Part shown: positions 42,563-49,179 of the stretch, piece after piece
Numbering within the stretch: the stretch's first letter is position 1
Layout: the number at the start of each line of letters is the position of its first letter
From: an uncultured Bacteroidales bacterium
GTDB lineage: Bacteria > Bacteroidota > Bacteroidia > Bacteroidales > F082
NCBI GenBank assembly: GCA_900318265.1
Contig: ONKA01000006.1
Location: 1 to 64,000, forward strand
DNA length: 64,000 bases
Direction: 5' to 3'
The notes under the pieces: generated by a model
Database searches by the model: none
What the model saw: only the letters and a program-made list of their open reading frames with translations
Told to the model about the DNA's origin: nothing
Translations under genes and position numbers: made by a program

Positions 42563-45113
42563 ACAACTTTGTTATCACTTTTAGCAACTGTTCGCCCAAG
42601 CCAATCGTATACCCCTGTTTCATAAACACCACCTCGCTGTTGGCGTTGGCGATGAGGAAGATGGGGCGGACGTCGGGGTTGAGGTGCATGCATTCAATGA
42701 GATCGTCACGGGTGGAGCCGTCGTCGATGCCATAGACGATGCCTTCGGGCAGCTCGTTGAAGTTCTTCAGTTTGAATTTGTCATATTCCTCCTTGCTGCT
42801 GAAGATGAAGATCATTGGCAAACCGTTGTCCTCGAAGTTCTTGCGGAAGGCAGCGATGTCTTGCATGGCGTGGGTGGTGGGTTCGCTGCCTTGGTCAAGA
42901 TAGCCGAGGATGAAATAGTCGTTACCCATCAATAGCCTTGGATTGCCGTCTTCACCCGTCTCAGGGTCGGTGAAGTGGATGTCGGCGTAGAAGCAACCGA
43001 TGACATGTACGTCGTGGTCGGCTTCGCGCAAAATGAGGTTCACTTGTGTGGTCGTGTCAGCCTTGATGCTGAAGAATTCGCTGTGGGTCAGCGCGGTGCC
43101 ATCGTCCAGGCGCGTTCCTGCCGTGAGGATGTAATAACCCTCGTCCAAAGGTGTAGGATGCTCAAAAGAGGAGAGCATCATGCCATCGTCGATACCTGGG
43201 TCTTTGGCGTCGTAGGCCAACAAGCGGAAACTGTTGCCATCGAATTTCTTGATGCTGAAATGTGTGTAGTATTTCGGGTCGGCGACGGAAGCGATGGGGT
43301 AGTATTGGATGTCCAGATATCCCACGGCGGCATAGGTAGGCTCAGCAGATTCGAAGTCCACATTGGTCCATTCCTTGCCGAAGTATTGCACATTTCCGTT
43401 TACGGGGTTGATTTGTGCGGCGATGCCCAAACTACGTGCCATGCTGACGAAGAAGATGTCGCGCGAATGGCGGTCGGCCTTACGGGCTTTTAAGACTCCC
43501 AAAGGTGAGATGGGAAAACGTTGGGGATTCAGGTTGTCATCGGTTTGGATATTTTCTTTCACCCAGTTGACCAACAGAGCGGGATTGTCATGGTATTGCC
43601 GTCTCTCCGTTTCGGGGAAGAACTCGGAAAGGGTCTTGCGGTAAGGCACCAGCATCTCGTTGCTCACGCGAGGATTGAGGATGTACTGGGCGTAATGCTC
43701 GGACGGCATGGAGATGATGGATTGCTCGAGACCAGGCGTGTTGTCGAGATGGTCTTTGAGTACTTCAAGGCTGACATCGCGCAAGTCTTTGTCGGAGATG
43801 TTGCTGAGCAGCTCCACGGCCTTGATCTCTTGGCCTTTGTCTTGGGCGTATTTCACGAAATCGGCGATGGTTTGCCAGTTGCCCCAAGTCTTTTCATAAA
43901 TACTACAGAGTTTTTTGTTGCCCGTATTCATAATCTCTTCCATCTGGGCTTTCTTGCAATCAGCGATGTAGGCGTTGCGCAGTGAGTCTTCAAAGGCCAA
44001 GCGGCGGTCGTTCTCGGTACGCATCTCGGCCGTGACTTCAGGCAAGACGCTGGTCGGGGCTGGTGGCACCATGTCGAACTCGAAGATGTCGTTTTGGCCC
44101 TGCTCGTGGTCGAGCGTGATGGTGATGCTGTCTTTCTCGCCCGACTTGAACACTTGGAAACCGAATTTGCCATCTTTGGCGGCGTAGGCCATCATGCAGC
44201 CCAAGCCAGAGGTGAGCCAGGTCTGGCCGTTCTCGTCGGTAGTTTTTGTAACGACAGTGCAGAATTCTGCATAATTGTAAATCTTGAACTCCACGGGCAG
44301 GTTAGCTTGCGGCTTGCCGTCACTGTCAACCACGGTAAAAGTGGTCTTGGCGGTCTTGCCATAGTTGTCTACCACGTTGATTTCCGTGTAGTTGGCGCTG
44401 CGGCTGATGACCTCCTCGGGACCGTCATAATCGCCGAAGACGCGGGTGTGTAATAATAAGGTGCGTGAGGCGGGCTCGTTGAACCAACCCAAGTCGAGCA
44501 CTGGCTCAGGTTCGCAGGCGCCGAGGAAGTGCCATTGCCCGTCTACCCAAGCCTCCACCCAGGCGTGGTTGTCGTCGCAGTGCGCCCAGCGGGGGGTATA
44601 CACTTGTCTTGCAGGAATGCCCACAGTGCGTAAGGCGGTCACCAATAGCGTTGATTCCTCGCCACAGCGACCCCACGAGGTCTTGATGGTGGCCATCGGA
44701 GCGCTAGTACGGCTGTCGCTACCTTTATAGTTGACATGCTCGTGGCACCAATGGTTCACTTCGAGGACGGCATCGTAAAGTGACAAATCCTTCACGCGGC
44801 CTTTGAGTTCTTCATAATAAGTGGCACGAAAGCGGTCGAGGTTCTCGTTGTTGACGCGGACGGGTACCACAAAATGCTTGAACTCGCGCTCGGGAATGTT
44901 TTGGCCCCAAGGCAGTTCTTGTTTGGCCAGGAAAGCAAAGTGGACACACTCGCGGTAATAATCTTCGGTGTAGTCCACGCTGTCGCCGAGCGGCATGTAT
45001 TGGTATAGGAATTCCAAGGCTGCTTTTTCATTGAAAGCCATTTTCTTTTCGGTTGAGCAGGCGGAAAAGAGAAAGGCAGAGATGGTAATGAGTGCGAGTA
45101 AGGTGTTTTTCAT
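42561..45113 (-). CDS. Large lipoprotein with transglutaminase-like domain
   Basis: An 850-residue lipoprotein (lipobox SAFLFSAC, Cys about 18). The transglutaminase-like core has SWGRCGEESTLLVTALRTVGIPARQVYTPRW with the catalytic Cys, then DDNHAWVEAWVDGQWHFLGACEP with the His and Asp. A carboxypeptidase-regulatory-like beta domain (KTTFTVVDSDGKPQANLPVEFKI) and further domains follow. The C-terminal 100 residues (PMIFIFSSKEEYDKF) look thioredoxin-like. It may be a peptidase, and the substrate is unknown. I chose the ATG at 45113, which opens the signal sequence. The frame runs to 45185 but that extension crosses the promoter at 45131-45138. Confidence 0.87.
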   Translation of the reverse strand: MKNTLLALITISAFLFSACSTEKKMAFNEKAALEFLYQYMPLGDSVDYTEDYYRECVHFAFLAKQELPWGQNIPEREFKHFVVPVRVNNENLDRFRATYYEELKGRVKDLSLYDAVLEVNHWCHEHVNYKGSDSRTSAPMATIKTSWGRCGEESTLLVTALRTVGIPARQVYTPRWAHCDDNHAWVEAWVDGQWHFLGACEPEPVLDLGWFNEPASRTLLLHTRVFGDYDGPEEVISRSANYTEINVVDNYGKTAKTTFTVVDSDGKPQANLPVEFKIYNYAEFCTVVTKTTDENGQTWLTSGLGCMMAYAAKDGKFGFQVFKSGEKDSITITLDHEQGQNDIFEFDMVPPAPTSVLPEVTAEMRTENDRRLAFEDSLRNAYIADCKKAQMEEIMNTGNKKLCSIYEKTWGNWQTIADFVKYAQDKGQEIKAVELLSNISDKDLRDVSLEVLKDHLDNTPGLEQSIISMPSEHYAQYILNPRVSNEMLVPYRKTLSEFFPETERRQYHDNPALLVNWVKENIQTDDNLNPQRFPISPLGVLKARKADRHSRDIFFVSMARSLGIAAQINPVNGNVQYFGKEWTNVDFESAEPTYAAVGYLDIQYYPIASVADPKYYTHFSIKKFDGNSFRLLAYDAKDPGIDDGMMLSSFEHPTPLDEGYYILTAGTRLDDGTALTHSEFFSIKADTTTQVNLILREADHDVHVIGCFYADIHFTDPETGEDGNPRLLMGNDYFILGYLDQGSEPTTHAMQDIAAFRKNFEDNGLPMIFIFSSKEEYDKFKLKNFNELPEGIVYGIDDGSTRDDLIECMHLNPDVRPIFLIANANSEVVFMKQGYTIGLGEQLLKVITKL

Positions 45114-45130
45114 GGTGCAATTGTTTGCTG

Positions 45131-45138
45131 CAAAGATA
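45131..45138 (-). promoter_or_regulatory. Promoter -7 element of the transglutaminase lipoprotein
   Basis: TATCTTTG followed by CAGC on the minus strand, 18 bp before the start at 45113. Confidence 0.65.
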
Positions 45139-45160
45139 GTGTTTAATAAGAAAAATACGC

Positions 45161-45168
45161 TATCTTTG
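45161..45168 (+). promoter_or_regulatory. Promoter -7 element for the methyltransferase leader
   Basis: TATCTTTG followed by CGCC on the plus strand. If used, transcription starts near 45175 and the methyltransferase mRNA has a leader of about 300 nt containing the structured region below. A TTTG box upstream is not clear. Confidence 0.5.
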
Positions 45169-45253
45169 CGCCAAATAAAGACCAAACGTATCGTAGAGAT
45201 AAAAATAGAGAATAACTAACATATTAAAAACCAAAGCATTAGCTATTATTTCG

Positions 45254-45474
45254 CGTTCGACGAAGTCTACCAAACAATAATTGAACCACAGAAATAATAT
45301 CTTGTAGGTGTCGTAAGATACCCATGCCAAGAATAATGTACTAATGCTCACGCTGCAAGCGTGGGTAGTACTTATTTGGCGTGGGGGTTTGGTAGACACC
45401 TGTCGAACGGATAACGAACCCCACGCTTCGTTTATGCCGTTTCGTGATTGATAGCATTGCGAAAACTATCAATC
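45254..45474 (+). ncRNA. Structured leader upstream of the EcoRI-type methyltransferase
   Basis: This occupies most of the 362-bp gene-free stretch 45114-45475. An outer stem pairs CGTTCGAC..GTCTACCAAAC (45254-45275) with GTTTGGTAGAC..GTCGAACG (45387-45409). Inside are hairpin 1 (TATCTT 45298-45303 with AAGATA 45315-45320) and hairpin 2 (CCCATGCCAA 45321-45330 with TTGGCGTGGG 45376-45385, continued by GTACTA/TAGTAC and CACGC/GCGTG). The loop of hairpin 1 (AGGTGTC, 45306-45312) complements GACACCT at 45395-45401, a potential pseudoknot. GCGTGGGG (45379-45386) can instead pair with CCCCACGC (45419-45426). A last perfect hairpin, GATTGATAG (45446) with CTATCAATC (45466-45474), ends one base before the start codon. 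Whether it acts as RNA or DNA is not known. Confidence 0.6.
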
Positions 45475-45475
45475 C

Positions 45476-46684
45476 ATGGCAAGAGAAGATTTGACAAATG
45501 CAAAAAGAGCAAAAAAGGATGAGTTTTATACAATGCTTGATGACATCGCATTGGAGTTAAAGCATTACAAACCCTATTTCAAAGACAAAGTTGTTTTTTG
45601 CAATTGCGATGATCCATACGAAAGCAATTTCTTCAAGTATTTTGCCCTCAATTTCAATTCATTTGGATTGAAAAAACTGATTGCCACTTGCTTTAATGGC
45701 TCTCCAATTGCAGGTGATGAACTTCCTTTGGTGTTTGACATGGCTGACGAGGAACCTAAGAAAACAGCCTATAAGGTTGAAATATCGGAAGTGAAAGATT
45801 ACAACGGCGATGGTGCAGTGAATCTCACGGACGTGCAGTATTTGATTCAAAACGATAAAAATGTGCTGTCGTTACTGAAAGGTAATGGAGATTTCCGCTC
45901 GCCAGAATGTATCGAACTGTTGAAGGAGGCGGATATTGTGGTCACCAATCCACCGTTTTCACTTTTTAGAGAGTTTGTTGGAATGTTGGTGAAATACCAA
46001 AAACAGTTTCTGATTATCGGGAACACCAATTCTCTAGCATGTAAAGAAATCTTCGGCTTGTTCCAAAAAGACCAGATTAGGACAGGATACACCAATTTCA
46101 ATGTTGGGATGTTTTTCGTCGTTCCAGATAGTTTTGAAAAATTTCATCATATAGAAAATGGTCATAAAGTTGCACGTGTATCAACATCTTGTTGGTACAC
46201 TAATCTTCCTGTTGCTAGACATAATGAAGAGATTGATCTATATAAAAACTACATGCCCGAAGAGTATCCAAAGTATGATAATTATGACGCAATAAATGTT
46301 GATTCATATAGAAATATTCCTTGTGATTATTATGGAATAATGGGAGTCCCTATAACTTTCCTGGACAAATTCAATCCTAATCAATTTGAATTACTTGGCT
46401 CGACACAAAGAGGTTGTCATGAATTAGTTCCAGACACTAGAAAATATGATGATTATTGGGAATGCAAACCGAATGGAGAAAAAACAGGCTCTTCAGGGAG
46501 TAAAACTAATGAAAATGGGAATTTATTAAGGAATGATGGAATACATAATTATTTTGTAAACTCAGAAGGAAGACAAATTCAATCTGCATATTCGAGAATT
46601 TTCATCCGTCGTCGTCAGGCGAAGACTGTTCCATACAAGGCAAGCGAATCATTCGTCCCGATGGCAGCAGAAGGGAATGAATAG
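45476..46684 (+). CDS. Adenine-specific DNA methyltransferase, EcoRI-MTase family
   Basis: A 402-residue predicted N6-adenine methyltransferase of the M.EcoRI family. It opens MAREDLTNAKRAKKDEFYTML and has VVFCNCDDPYESNFFKYF (a family signature), the catalytic TNPPFSLFREFV motif (about 157-168), and the family C-terminal part IPCDYYGIMGVPITFLDKFNPNQFELLG. Residues about 109-120 (DYNGDGAVNLTD) read like a dockerin/EF-hand calcium loop. The gene is clearly more AT-rich than its neighbours, particularly after 46100, which suggests transfer. The DUF262-HNH gene follows after 105 bp. Recognition sequence cannot be inferred. Confidence 0.88.
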   Translation: MAREDLTNAKRAKKDEFYTMLDDIALELKHYKPYFKDKVVFCNCDDPYESNFFKYFALNFNSFGLKKLIATCFNGSPIAGDELPLVFDMADEEPKKTAYKVEISEVKDYNGDGAVNLTDVQYLIQNDKNVLSLLKGNGDFRSPECIELLKEADIVVTNPPFSLFREFVGMLVKYQKQFLIIGNTNSLACKEIFGLFQKDQIRTGYTNFNVGMFFVVPDSFEKFHHIENGHKVARVSTSCWYTNLPVARHNEEIDLYKNYMPEEYPKYDNYDAINVDSYRNIPCDYYGIMGVPITFLDKFNPNQFELLGSTQRGCHELVPDTRKYDDYWECKPNGEKTGSSGSKTNENGNLLRNDGIHNYFVNSEGRQIQSAYSRIFIRRRQAKTVPYKASESFVPMAAEGNE

Positions 46685-46696
46685 CAACAGCCAACC

Positions 46697-46743
46697 CGTC
46701 CCGAAGGGACGATACTCGCTTTACCGTAGGTCGCGACCTACGG
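46697..46743. repeat. Two palindromes between the methyltransferase and HNH genes
   Basis: CGTCCCGAAGGGACG is a short hairpin, and CCGTAGGTCGCGACCTACGG (46724-46743) is a perfect 20-bp palindrome. No T run follows either, so they are not typical terminators. Confidence 0.8.
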
Positions 46744-46789
46744 CAGCACCCCCAGTAGGAAAACATAACAATCTAAACAAGAATACCCT

Positions 46790-47914
46790 ATGGAAATAAC
46801 ACTTCATGAAATCAATATCCGCGAGTTGGCGGAAGGCTATCAAGACCTTAGTGCGGCTGAAGAAGGCATCGTAGGTTACGGTGGTCGGCTGAATATCCGC
46901 CCAAAGTATCAGCGTGAGTTTGTCTATGACGACAAAAAACGTAACGCGGTTATCGATACCGTTTGGAACAAGTTCCCACTCAACGTGATGTATTGGGTAA
47001 AAACTGATGGTGCCGATGGCATCGAATATGAACTGCTTGACGGACAACAACGTACTATATCGATATGCTCGTTTATCGCTGGCGAATTTATGATGATTAT
47101 TGAGGGCAACCTCTGCGCTTGGGATAACCTCACGGAAACGCAGAAAGAGCGAATCTTGAACTATCCGCTTCAAATCTACATCTGCGAAAACGGCACCGAT
47201 GAGGAAAAGCTGAAGTGGTTCAACATCATCAACATTGCAGGTGAAAAGTTGACTGAACAGGAGATCCGAAACGCCATTTATTCAGGCCCATGGGTGACGC
47301 AAGCCAAACGCCGTTTTTCCAAGACGGGTTGCGTGGCTTACAAAATCGCCTCGGATTACATGTCGGGTTCGCCTATCCGACAGGATTATTTTGAGAAAGC
47401 CTTGAAATGGATTGGCAACAAGCAGGGCAAGAGTATCGAACAATATATGGCTGAACATCAGCACGATACCGATGCCGACCAACTTTGGCAGTATTTCCAA
47501 GATGTGATTCATTGGGTGGAAAAACTGTTTGGACGCAAGTATAAAAAAGAGATGAAAGCGGTTGATTGGGGTATCCTTTACAACCAATACTACGACACAA
47601 CGCTCACGGCTACTGCTATCGCTCAAGAGGTTTCAAAACTTATGGCCGACTCCGATGTGCAGAAGAAATCAGGCATATTCCATTATGTTTTCGACCACGA
47701 CGAACATCACTTGGGTATCCGTGCCTTTGACGACAACACCAAGCGTGAAGTTTACGAAAAGCAAAACGGTATATGCGCCATCTGTGGTAAGCATTTTGAA
47801 ATCGAGCAAATGGAAGCCGACCATATTACGCCGTGGTGTGATGGAGGCCGTACCATCGCTGAAAACTGTCAGATGCTCTGCAAGGAATGTAATAGACGGA
47901 AGAGCGGGAAATAA
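46790..47914 (+). CDS. DUF262 domain protein with C-terminal HNH endonuclease
   Basis: A 374-residue protein with two parts. The N-terminal DUF262 domain, related to GmrS and to ParB-like folds, has RPKYQREFVYDDKKRNAVIDTV and the signature LLDGQQRTISICSF (about 82-95). The C-terminal 60 residues form an HNH nuclease with a zinc-binding CAICG..CKECN frame and catalytic ADHITPWCDGGRTIAENCQMLC. This resembles GmrSD-type modification-dependent restriction enzymes, but the GmrD-like DUF1524 part is replaced by a short HNH. With the methyltransferase upstream it may form a restriction-modification or other defence pair. A bidirectional terminator follows. Confidence 0.85.
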   Translation: MEITLHEINIRELAEGYQDLSAAEEGIVGYGGRLNIRPKYQREFVYDDKKRNAVIDTVWNKFPLNVMYWVKTDGADGIEYELLDGQQRTISICSFIAGEFMMIIEGNLCAWDNLTETQKERILNYPLQIYICENGTDEEKLKWFNIINIAGEKLTEQEIRNAIYSGPWVTQAKRRFSKTGCVAYKIASDYMSGSPIRQDYFEKALKWIGNKQGKSIEQYMAEHQHDTDADQLWQYFQDVIHWVEKLFGRKYKKEMKAVDWGILYNQYYDTTLTATAIAQEVSKLMADSDVQKKSGIFHYVFDHDEHHLGIRAFDDNTKREVYEKQNGICAICGKHFEIEQMEADHITPWCDGGRTIAENCQMLCKECNRRKSGK

Positions 47915-47940
47915 ACTGCCGAAAGTCGGTTTACCACAAA

Positions 47941-47967
47941 AAAAGGTGGTAAGCTTACCACCTTTTT
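47941..47967. terminator. Bidirectional terminator after the DUF262-HNH gene
   Basis: GGTGGTAAGCTTACCACC flanked by an A run and TTTTT, between converging genes. Confidence 0.9.
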
Positions 47968-47980
47968 GACAACATTTCAT

Positions 47981-48005
47981 CTGGATCGCTTCGTGCCTCG
48001 CGATG
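47981..48005. repeat. REP-like element, copy 1 (CATCGCGAGG form)
   Basis: The minus strand reads CATCGCGAGGCACGAAGCGA and continues TCCAG. It matches the plus-strand copy at 63298-63322 except for one loop base and a paired T-to-C/A-to-G change, so base pairing is kept. Confidence 0.75.
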
Positions 48006-48027
48006 ACGCGAAGCGACGACAAGCCAA

Positions 48028-49179
48028 CTAAACCATGAATTCTTCCAACGAGGAGAACAGAATCTCTTTCAGTTCCTCTTTGTGCTCGGGCGTGGTCTGC
48101 GTGAACAGGAATCCCCAGATGCTCATGGCGGGGTTCATGATGTCGCGGGTCTCAAGCACGCCGTGGAAGTGCCGCTTGATGCGCTCGAAGTCCAAGGCGC
48201 GGTTGGTGTCGTATGGCTTATCTAGTACGATGAAGCTGAACACGTCGTTCTCGATGCCGTTCCACATGGTGGCATAGTCGGGACGAATGCCCTCGAAATA
48301 GCACTGTACAGGCAGCAGATGGCAGGTGTGACGCGTCAAGTCGTTGAGGCACATGCCAGCGAAACGCAGCGGGTTGACCTCAATCGGGATGGCACGACCT
48401 GTGTTTTTGTCGACGCGGAACTCCACATGCATCGGGAAGTTCTTCAGGCCGAGCACGCCGTTTAGGTCGATGCAGAACTGGTTGAAAGCTGGATAGTTGG
48501 CCTCGAAGATTTGCTTGCTCATGCAGTAAAGGCGGTCGCTCACGTCGGTCTCGTTCTTGAAGATGTGGTGGAAGATGTTGATGATGTTGGGCTTGCCCTC
48601 GGCATCATAATAGGCGTCCACGGCATATTCCTCGCCTTCGATGAACTGCTCAAGCACGAACTTTTCGCTGCGTACCACAGTCTCGGGGAACACGGCGCAT
48701 TGCTTGGCGAAGTTTTGGTCGATGTCGTCCAAGGCGGCCTGCCATTCAGCCTTGTTGCGGACGATATACACGCCCACGCTGAGGAATCCTACTGCGGGTT
48801 TCAGCACCAAAGGCAGCGGCAACTCGTCGGGGTTGAGGTTGCGCAAGGCTTTCATCTCCACCTCTTTGTAATAGAAGTCGGGATAAATCTGCTGGCAGAT
48901 GCGACGGAAAGCGGCCTTGTCCTTCAGGATCTTGACCTTTTTCACCAGTTCCGACTCAGGCAACTGGGCGTAGAGCCACACCAAGGCGTTCTCGGAGACG
49001 GCATACAACTGATGGCTTTGCTCGTATTTTTCAACGAAAGCCTTGTCGTCCAAAAGGTTAAGGTGATGGCCTTGGCCTTTCAGCACCTCGGCCATGTCGT
49101 TATGTAAGACGGGGATTTGTTTTTCCTCTAAATACGCCACCAATGGGGCGGAAACGTATGGTTTTTCTAGAATGATCAT
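48028..49179 (-). CDS. ATP-grasp domain protein of unknown substrate
   Basis: A 383-residue ATP-grasp enzyme, a family that joins a carboxylate to an amine or thiol through an acyl phosphate. The N-terminal domain begins MIILEKPYVSAPLVAYLEEK. The central fold has LPLVLKPAVGFLSVGVYIV (ATP-binding Lys), RSEKFVLEQFIEGEEYAVDAYYD, and the metal-binding MHVEFRVDKNTGRAIPIEVNPLRFAG. Family members include carbamoyl-phosphate synthase-like and D-Ala-D-Ala ligase-like enzymes. Nothing here fixes the substrate. It is 55 bp downstream of purA, with the 28-bp palindrome copy 3 between them. Confidence 0.85.
   Translation of the reverse strand: MIILEKPYVSAPLVAYLEEKQIPVLHNDMAEVLKGQGHHLNLLDDKAFVEKYEQSHQLYAVSENALVWLYAQLPESELVKKVKILKDKAAFRRICQQIYPDFYYKEVEMKALRNLNPDELPLPLVLKPAVGFLSVGVYIVRNKAEWQAALDDIDQNFAKQCAVFPETVVRSEKFVLEQFIEGEEYAVDAYYDAEGKPNIINIFHHIFKNETDVSDRLYCMSKQIFEANYPAFNQFCIDLNGVLGLKNFPMHVEFRVDKNTGRAIPIEVNPLRFAGMCLNDLTRHTCHLLPVQCYFEGIRPDYATMWNGIENDVFSFIVLDKPYDTNRALDFERIKRHFHGVLETRDIMNPAMSIWGFLFTQTTPEHKEELKEILFSSLEEFMV

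Follow-up and report, generated by a model that had tools for sequence, protein, structure and literature searches.

A Bacteroidales leader RNA with three pseudoknots and a start-codon hairpin ahead of exchanged restriction-modification, cell-surface and other genes

In the genome of an uncultured Bacteroidales bacterium (GCA_900318265.1), the gene for an EcoRI-type adenine methyltransferase is directly preceded by DNA that can fold into an elaborate set of stems, which raises the question of what kind of element this is and what it would control. Here we report a computational analysis of this locus within a window of 64,000 nt (positions 1 to 64,000 of contig ONKA01000006.1, to which all coordinates refer), as well as of its homologues in other genomes. 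We identified a leader RNA domain of about 262 nt. The best explanation, held with moderate confidence, is that it represents a class of cis-regulatory RNA in Bacteroidales that has not been described before and that acts as a gate at the start codon. The methyltransferase gene and the adjacent gene for a GmrSD_N-HNH protein look like a type II restriction-modification operon: PADLOC assigns the pair to MTase_II and REase_II, placing a methylase and a restriction enzyme family side by side, and the operon is flanked by a Transglut_core gene and an ATP-grasp gene.

The features of the locus are collected in Table 1. The segment 45240-45480 folds at -88.3 kcal/mol compared with -57.3 kcal/mol (s.d. 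4.3) for 200 dinucleotide shuffles, none of which was as stable (z -7.2); on this value and the covariation described below, a chance hairpin was rejected. The original prediction had placed the leader at 45254-45474. Its structure proved real, but about 40 nt at the 5' end, starting from 45214, had been missed together with the P4 pseudoknot, which spans P1 and P2. The outer stem, predicted at about 19 bp, is found in the window as P1 (9 bp) plus P2 (11 bp), and the predicted pseudoknot between AGGTGTC and GACACCT is present as P6, the first strand of which (45307-45312) can, by eye, alternatively form a local hairpin with 45317-45322. A further competing stem had been proposed between 45379-45386 (GCGTGGGG) and 45419-45426 (CCCCACGC); the two are complementary in the window, but across the family, 45420-45427 finds its partner in 45358-45365, the 3' arm of the P7 hairpin, and this pairing is named P9. 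The final hairpin, P10, has the predicted perfect 9-bp arms (45446-45454/45466-45474), followed by one base and then the ATG. Upstream, the box TATCTTTG agrees with TAnnTTTG, which we take to be the Bacteroidota -7 promoter consensus. The roughly 45 nt between this box and the leader hold no start codon, and a search for a leader peptide found no ATG, GTG or TTG in 45172-45240. An upstream reading frame starting from P7 of the window was rejected, being closed early in two other copies (L014 and L012, by eye).

Table 1. Coordinates of the leader RNA, its predicted helices and the neighbouring features in the window
Feature	Position	Strand	Basis or remark
Promoter -7 box TATCTTTG, Bacteroidota-type	45161..45168	+	about 50 nt upstream of the leader
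Whole leader RNA domain	45214..45475	+	model R1, 194.9 bits; the window sequence is also in the model's seed
5' segment, conserved, mostly unpaired	45214..45243	+	alignment of homologues
P4 pseudoknot, 5' strand TATTATTTC	45244..45252	+	partner-swap z -5.1, 0/5000 permutations
P4 pseudoknot, 3' strand GAAATAATA	45291..45299	+	partner-swap test, as for the 5' strand
P1 outer stem, 5' strand	45254..45262	+	two-sided changes in 7/7 modelled pairs; swap z -13
P1 outer stem, 3' strand	45401..45409	+	covariation and swap test
P2 stem, 5' strand	45265..45275	+	swap z -15; P2 lies outside the model used to find copies
P2 stem, 3' strand	45387..45397	+	swap test
P6 pseudoknot, 5' strand AGGTGTC	45306..45312	+	swap z -6.5, 0/5000
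P6 pseudoknot, 3' strand GACACCT	45395..45401	+	swap test; overlaps the end of P2
P7 arm	45321..45385	+	lower stems 45321-45342/45367-45385; terminal hairpin 45346-45354/45358-45366
P9, 5' strand AGCGTGGG	45358..45365	+	bases of the 3' arm of the P7 hairpin; swap z -9.1
P9, 3' strand CCCACGCT	45420..45427	+	in and beside the P8 loop; swap test
P8 small hairpin, 3' of P1	45413-45418/45427-45432	+	by-eye reading
P10 start-codon hairpin GATTGATAG...CTATCAATC	45446..45474	+	-8.7 kcal/mol; two-sided changes in 6/9 pairs
EcoRI-type adenine methyltransferase, 402 aa	45476..46684	+	PF13651, E 1.4e-131; MTase_II, 2.2e-108
GmrSD_N + HNH protein, 374 aa	46790..47914	+	REase_II, E 1.9e-130; likely restriction partner

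A DNA search with 45180-45475 found similar sequences in 60 of 199 genomes (the own genome and its relatives) at E<=0.001, with many of the matches confined to the 5' segment or the 3' hairpin. The covariance model R1 was built from 36 aligned leaders, and its structure consists of P1, the P7 hairpin and P10 only. Of 297 genomes, 69 had a match to R1 at E<=1e-3, namely 62 from the same genus, one more from the family and six from other families of the order. At 88 bits or more there were 77 places in 50 genomes (46 of the genus), and many of the remaining matches were short or weak. The 75 strong copies used below comprise 73 of these places (leaving out G054:C9, G086:C3, G014:C378 and G047:C5) plus L068 and L073, which belong to a set of order-level relatives from a protein search (L068-L073), all of them metagenome-assembled or uncultured by title. 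Among 395 genomes drawn evenly from the phylum and searched with stricter filters, R1 matched only the own genome, and the leader, as far as these searches reach, is an RNA of Bacteroidales with most of its occurrences in a single genus. Besides the strong copy in the window, the own genome holds a second one that is weak and divergent (27.7 bits); the latter stands directly before another DNA methyltransferase gene and resembles, over 1276 bases, a locus encoding an Eco57I/N6_Mtase protein. Searches of phages, plasmids and viral contigs, the viral ones with exact patterns only, found no leader.

Whether the fold is under selection was examined in two ways. When 100 matches were aligned to R1, 96.4% of cells paired, as against 25-53% with the partners slid by 1-3 columns, and two-sided compensatory changes were present in 7 of 7 pairs of P1, 9 of 9 pairs of the P7 hairpin and 6 of 9 pairs of P10, values that were reached by none of 500 shuffles. 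RNAalifold, run on the plain alignment, returned only P1, the P7 hairpin, P10 and a 3-bp stem and missed P2, which counts against the preferred explanation given below. The R1 alignment is fitted to the three helices of its model, and those outside it were therefore tested separately, by comparing the duplex energy of each sequence's own strands with that of strands swapped between sequences, in 5000 permutations over 45 representatives (clustered by shared 8-mers from 74 rows, after L123 and L130 had been removed from 76). Own partners were favoured for P1 (z -13), P2 (-15), P4 (-5.1), P6 (-6.5) and P9 (-9.1), each with 0 of 5000 permutations reaching the observed value, whereas three unrelated pairs of regions used as controls gave z values of 0.4-1.3; the values are approximate rather than strict probabilities, the representatives being related and the regions cut at fixed offsets. 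Own strands beat the mean of the swapped ones in 45 (P2), 34 (P4), 40 (P6) and 35 (P9) of the 45 sequences, so that P4 and P9 were no better than swapped in 11 and 10, respectively. The swap test supports P2 and the three pseudoknots P4, P6 and P9 as real helices. The covariance-model matches, covariation, the swap test and the distance to the ATG described below strongly support the original idea of a structured leader, conserved in the family, in which some pairings exclude others and a hairpin adjoins the start codon.

The strand that carries the selected fold could also be determined. Across 25 pairs in the 75 strong copies there are 216 G-U pairs and only 2 A-C mismatches, and because the opposite strand would turn each G-U into an A-C, it is an RNA of the coding strand that is conserved and not a DNA cruciform. 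Taken together, these sequence comparisons show that the conserved molecule is a sense-strand RNA with the nested stems P1, P2, P7 and P10 and the pseudoknots P4, P6 and P9. The same counts argue against a DNA-level reading, in which the leader is a mobile foldback or a site of recombination that marks where exchanged cassettes end. Such a role would accord with the fact that the leader travels with exchanged gene cassettes, with homology to six other loci that begins at the leader's 5' end (45209-45219), and with the existence of empty sites. A foldback or MITE would, however, be expected in many dispersed copies, and the own genome has just the two mentioned above; in a non-systematic look at cassette edges, neither a constant 3' end nor a target duplication was seen. 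According to the original prediction, copies away from methyltransferases would mark a mobile foldback. Such copies do exist, but the conclusion fails, because the copies, taken as a set, keep the fold by compensatory change and a near-constant distance to the ATG. We regard this reading as largely refuted and very improbable.

The position of the leader relative to the gene behind it is short and nearly fixed. The ATG falls 0-3 nt past the end of the model in 64 of the 75 strong copies, and an ORF starts nearby in 72. Of 73 copies (two with less than 150 nt of upstream sequence being left out), 49 have a TAnnTTTG box in the 150 nt before the leader, with a mean of 4.5 in 200 base shuffles, and in 45 the box lies at -100 to -30 (shuffle mean 2.2); several copies without a box directly follow another ORF. 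The downstream genes are mixed. First ORFs could be scanned at 71 loci (setting aside L123, a remnant without a gene, and L105, L190 and L200, where no ORF was found), with some of the proteins truncated (e.g., L053, L100, L113, L196 and L201) and several orthologous, so that independent contexts are fewer. EcoRI-type methylases account for 49 of the 71. The 22 others include four family-2 glycosyltransferases, four SGNH/GDSL hydrolases, three acyltransferases, two GtrA and two DUF2334 proteins, and one each of a Tsp45I-like restriction enzyme, an Eco57I-like methylase and a ResIII-HNH helicase, the remaining four being, by eye, three small HTH proteins and a 215-aa protein encoded before a methylase-like gene. 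Control of methyltransferase expression, as suggested by the original prediction, does not hold as a methyltransferase-specific function, given these 22 first ORFs, and was rejected in that form, the leader also standing before other restriction-modification genes, surface genes and small HTH genes. By eye, divergent leaders of the same plan precede a 105-aa HTH gene in many genomes as well as two other HTH copies. The divergent leaders recognised include those of L003, L057, L058, L130, L222 and L223.

Conversely, not every EcoRI-type methyltransferase gene has the leader. The leader is not tied to METHYLTRANSFERASE: an R1 match lies directly upstream of 49 of 68 EcoRI-type loci, with two broken copies in addition; the 68 are loci with a visible 5' end, compared by hand, two more lying at contig edges and six with an unmatched N-terminus being left out. 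Among the 19 loci without a match, L057 and L058 at least have divergent leaders (fold z -5.2 and -6.8), and four others (L060, L061, L065 and L066), as well as two loci from the protein search, L071 and L074, show little or no structure (z +1.2 to -2.7). A family of small HTH-like proteins in the same genus (L209-L228) has matches in 59 of 100 genomes, up to 19 in one; some copies have a structured leader and others do not, and two scanned members gave no Pfam hit.

Given an RNA in front of such a mixture of genes, does it act on the mRNA to which it is joined, or as a molecule of its own? As a free-standing non-coding RNA, it would act in trans or bind the encoded proteins, e.g., by guiding the HNH partner or serving as its scaffold. 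The large fold with several pseudoknots, often with its own promoter, fits such a role, and the HNH domain weakly resembles those of IscB/Cas9d and Cas9; the IscB/Cas9d matches, however, are confined to the HNH domain and far below cut-off (NF040563, 26.5 bits versus a cut-off of 175), 22 of the 71 first genes, the genes covered by the systematic scan, are not EcoRI-type methylases but mostly surface or HTH genes, and the junction to the ATG is short and near-constant. A trans-acting RNA is improbable on this evidence.

The short junction favours action on the downstream start codon. Under the preferred explanation, 45214-45475 would be the structured end of a 5' UTR of about 300 nt, transcribed from the promoter near 45161, and the RNA class would be carried ahead of horizontally exchanged defence and cell-surface genes. 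P10 would lie in the ribosome-binding region and keep translation low by default, the body from P1 to P7 would act as a sensing domain for a metabolite, a protein or another common signal, and an exchange between the P7 hairpin and P9 would report the state of the body to P10 and through it to the ATG. The simplest reading is that translation stays low until the fold of the leader changes; the part that moves is best sought in the P7 hairpin and P9, conserved pairings that exclude each other. By duplex energy, with loop costs left aside, P9 is more stable than the arms of the P7 hairpin in 36 of 45 representatives (means -18.3 and -13.0 kcal/mol), the exceptions including L078, L080, L082 and several similar copies. 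P10 reaches -5.2 kcal/mol or lower in 42 of 45 representatives; it is weak or absent in L125, L091 and L122 and also, by eye, at the 105-aa HTH genes. A structure of -5.2 kcal/mol over the Shine-Dalgarno region is reported to cut reporter protein five-fold in Prevotella bryantii, and Bacteroidota start sites are described as generally without Shine-Dalgarno sequences and with weakly structured 5' UTRs (PMC3155529), a setting in which the leader would be a natural start-codon gate; in Flavobacterium johnsoniae, initiation is reported to be tuned by mRNA structure (PMC6847099).

A further relay from the body to P10 might be provided by pairing of CUAUUA in the 5' segment with UGAUAG in the 5' arm of P10. 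All 10 ungapped copies with an A at the first position of the motif have a U partner, and two more, L122 and L124, pair in another register. In three of four copies gapped at this position, however, a C stands opposite the A, the pairing does not stand out in the swap test (z -1.7, 259 of 5000 permutations), and the covarying position can also be explained by P4. The pairing is weakly supported, and we keep it only as a possibility.

Two other readings of the leader as a cis-acting element were weighed against a start-codon gate. The first is a transcription attenuator, in which P9 and a U-rich run would form an intrinsic terminator and the P7 hairpin the antiterminator, with P10 secondary. 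The 9 nt on the 3' side of P9 are 75% T, against 34% across that region, in the 45 representatives, long runs of T also occupy this position in divergent copies (by eye), and the P7 hairpin and P9 have one strand in common, all as an attenuator would have it. The strands of P9, on the other hand, are separated in the window by 54 nt that hold the 3' strands of P2 and P1, unlike a usual terminator; the T run of the window itself is broken (TCGTTTATG), and scanning for terminators gave no match at this place. As attenuation also leaves the short, near-constant distance to the ATG unexplained, we consider it unlikely. The second is a constitutive structural element, a fixed fold that would stabilise the mRNA, or position or recruit the ribosome in an IRES-like manner, without sensing. 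This would suit the very tight geometry at the ATG of unrelated genes, as well as the sequence of the 5' segment and P10, which are strongly conserved beyond the needs of pairing while the middle of the leader varies. It is at odds with the conservation of both mutually exclusive pairings, P7 and P9, and with the placement of P10 over mRNA that ribosomes of Bacteroidota apparently require to be unpaired, and it too appears rather unlikely.

If the leader senses, what might it sense? Like riboswitches, it combines a conserved, aptamer-like fold in the 5' UTR with covariation; unlike theirs, its genes do not form the pathway of one ligand, being EcoRI-type methylases at 49 of 71 loci and other restriction-modification, surface and HTH genes at the rest. 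The absence of a common metabolic pathway among the downstream genes is unusual for a metabolite riboswitch and speaks against one. It is possible, although we hold it tentatively and with more doubt than confidence, that the leader is a shared expression gate for a regulon of defence and surface genes in Bacteroidales. Acquired along with unrelated genes for restriction-modification, glycan modification and HTH proteins, it would in a riboswitch-like manner make newly exchanged genes answer to a single signal, such as a metabolite of infection or stress, or a protein. The gene set (DNA modification, surface glycans and HTH proteins) leads us to guess at a signal connected with phages or with stress on the envelope. 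If the leader does sense something, it would show how Bacteroidales use RNA to subject defence and surface genes that are exchanged freely to a shared signal, and the nature of the ligand could then be addressed by direct experiment.

Leader RNAs of such size and conservation are uncommon, and we know of no such RNA ahead of restriction-modification genes. Expression of the latter can be controlled by C proteins, which are DNA-binding regulators; the leader is likewise a candidate means of such control, but is an RNA and also precedes genes outside restriction-modification. The closest structural analogy is the cobalamin riboswitch, a large 5'-UTR RNA with a multi-stem body, a hairpin adjacent to the start codon and, beyond P1, a loop whose bases fold back to pair with the body; the leader has the same three elements, a multi-stem body, back-pairing from a loop outside P1 and a hairpin by the start codon. 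Structured RNAs upstream of HNH-containing genes are represented by the IscB omega-RNA (HEARO RNA). The leader similarly precedes a gene pair that includes an HNH domain, but it has no Rfam match, its first gene encodes a methylase or another restriction-modification, surface or HTH protein rather than IscB, and no IscB gene was found adjacent to it. No reverse transcriptase, as would be expected of a retron, was present among the two downstream genes or the flanking Transglut_core and ATP-grasp genes.

That the leader belongs to no known riboswitch class, as originally noted, holds against Rfam 15. A search of the whole window with its 4227 families at the gathering threshold returned only tRNA and 5S rRNA, both elsewhere in the window; within 45100-45600, seven weak matches up to E 10 all came from microRNA, snoRNA or lncRNA models below threshold, with no riboswitch among them, and 20 diverse homologous loci matched no family. 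Bacteroidales-1 (RF01693), Bacteroides-1 (RF01694) and Bacteroid-trp (RF01692) are described as structured RNAs of the same phylum (PMC2864571), but the leader matches no Rfam 15 family at the gathering threshold, these included. No description of the leader RNA was recognised among the publications listed by literature searches; in a report of thousands of candidate RNAs (PMC8040213), the searched words do not occur in the main text, and its supplementary lists may hold the leader unnamed. The leader probably belongs to the cis-regulatory leaders, a known kind of RNA, as a class not described before; its unusual features are the three pseudoknots, the start-codon hairpin and the mixed set of exchanged genes.

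The site occupied by the operon is itself variable. In the region that corresponds to 45125-48028 of the window and in L150-L189, it is either empty or filled by leader-methylase-HNH cassettes of different types, and in 13 of 40 fetched neighbourhoods the Transglut_core and ATP-grasp genes adjoin without the operon. At one such empty site, L159, the scar consists of the promoter and the end of the HNH gene. The last codons of the HNH gene are also left as a scar, at empty sites or after other genes, in L106 (2718-2833 and 3578-3700), L183 and L134. Site-specific mobility of the cassettes was rejected: left edges cluster at the start of the leader, where the homology between the window and six other loci sets in, and right edges of different cassettes differ, so that homologous exchange is enough. 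In L106 and L135, which share the same chromosomal site with near-identical upstream sequence, an acyltransferase gene replaces the methylase-HNH pair after the leader, and the interior of the leader also differs; exchange in this case seems to have taken place inside the leader. At the 3' edge of the cassettes in L069, L070, L043, L107 and L108 there are palindromes of the type GCACTTCGCGAAGTGC, in some followed by GTGAGTCA, which are perhaps terminators or repeats. Finally, L132 (G001:C28:13000-19958) and L133 (G069:C14:70000-80000, reversed) contain gene arrays, in which one scanned gene encodes a DUF1016_N + YhcG_C nuclease (PADLOC PDC-S02) and several genes are preceded by only the first 60 nt or so of the leader, running straight into the ATG; these short leaders read as truncated or ancestral forms.
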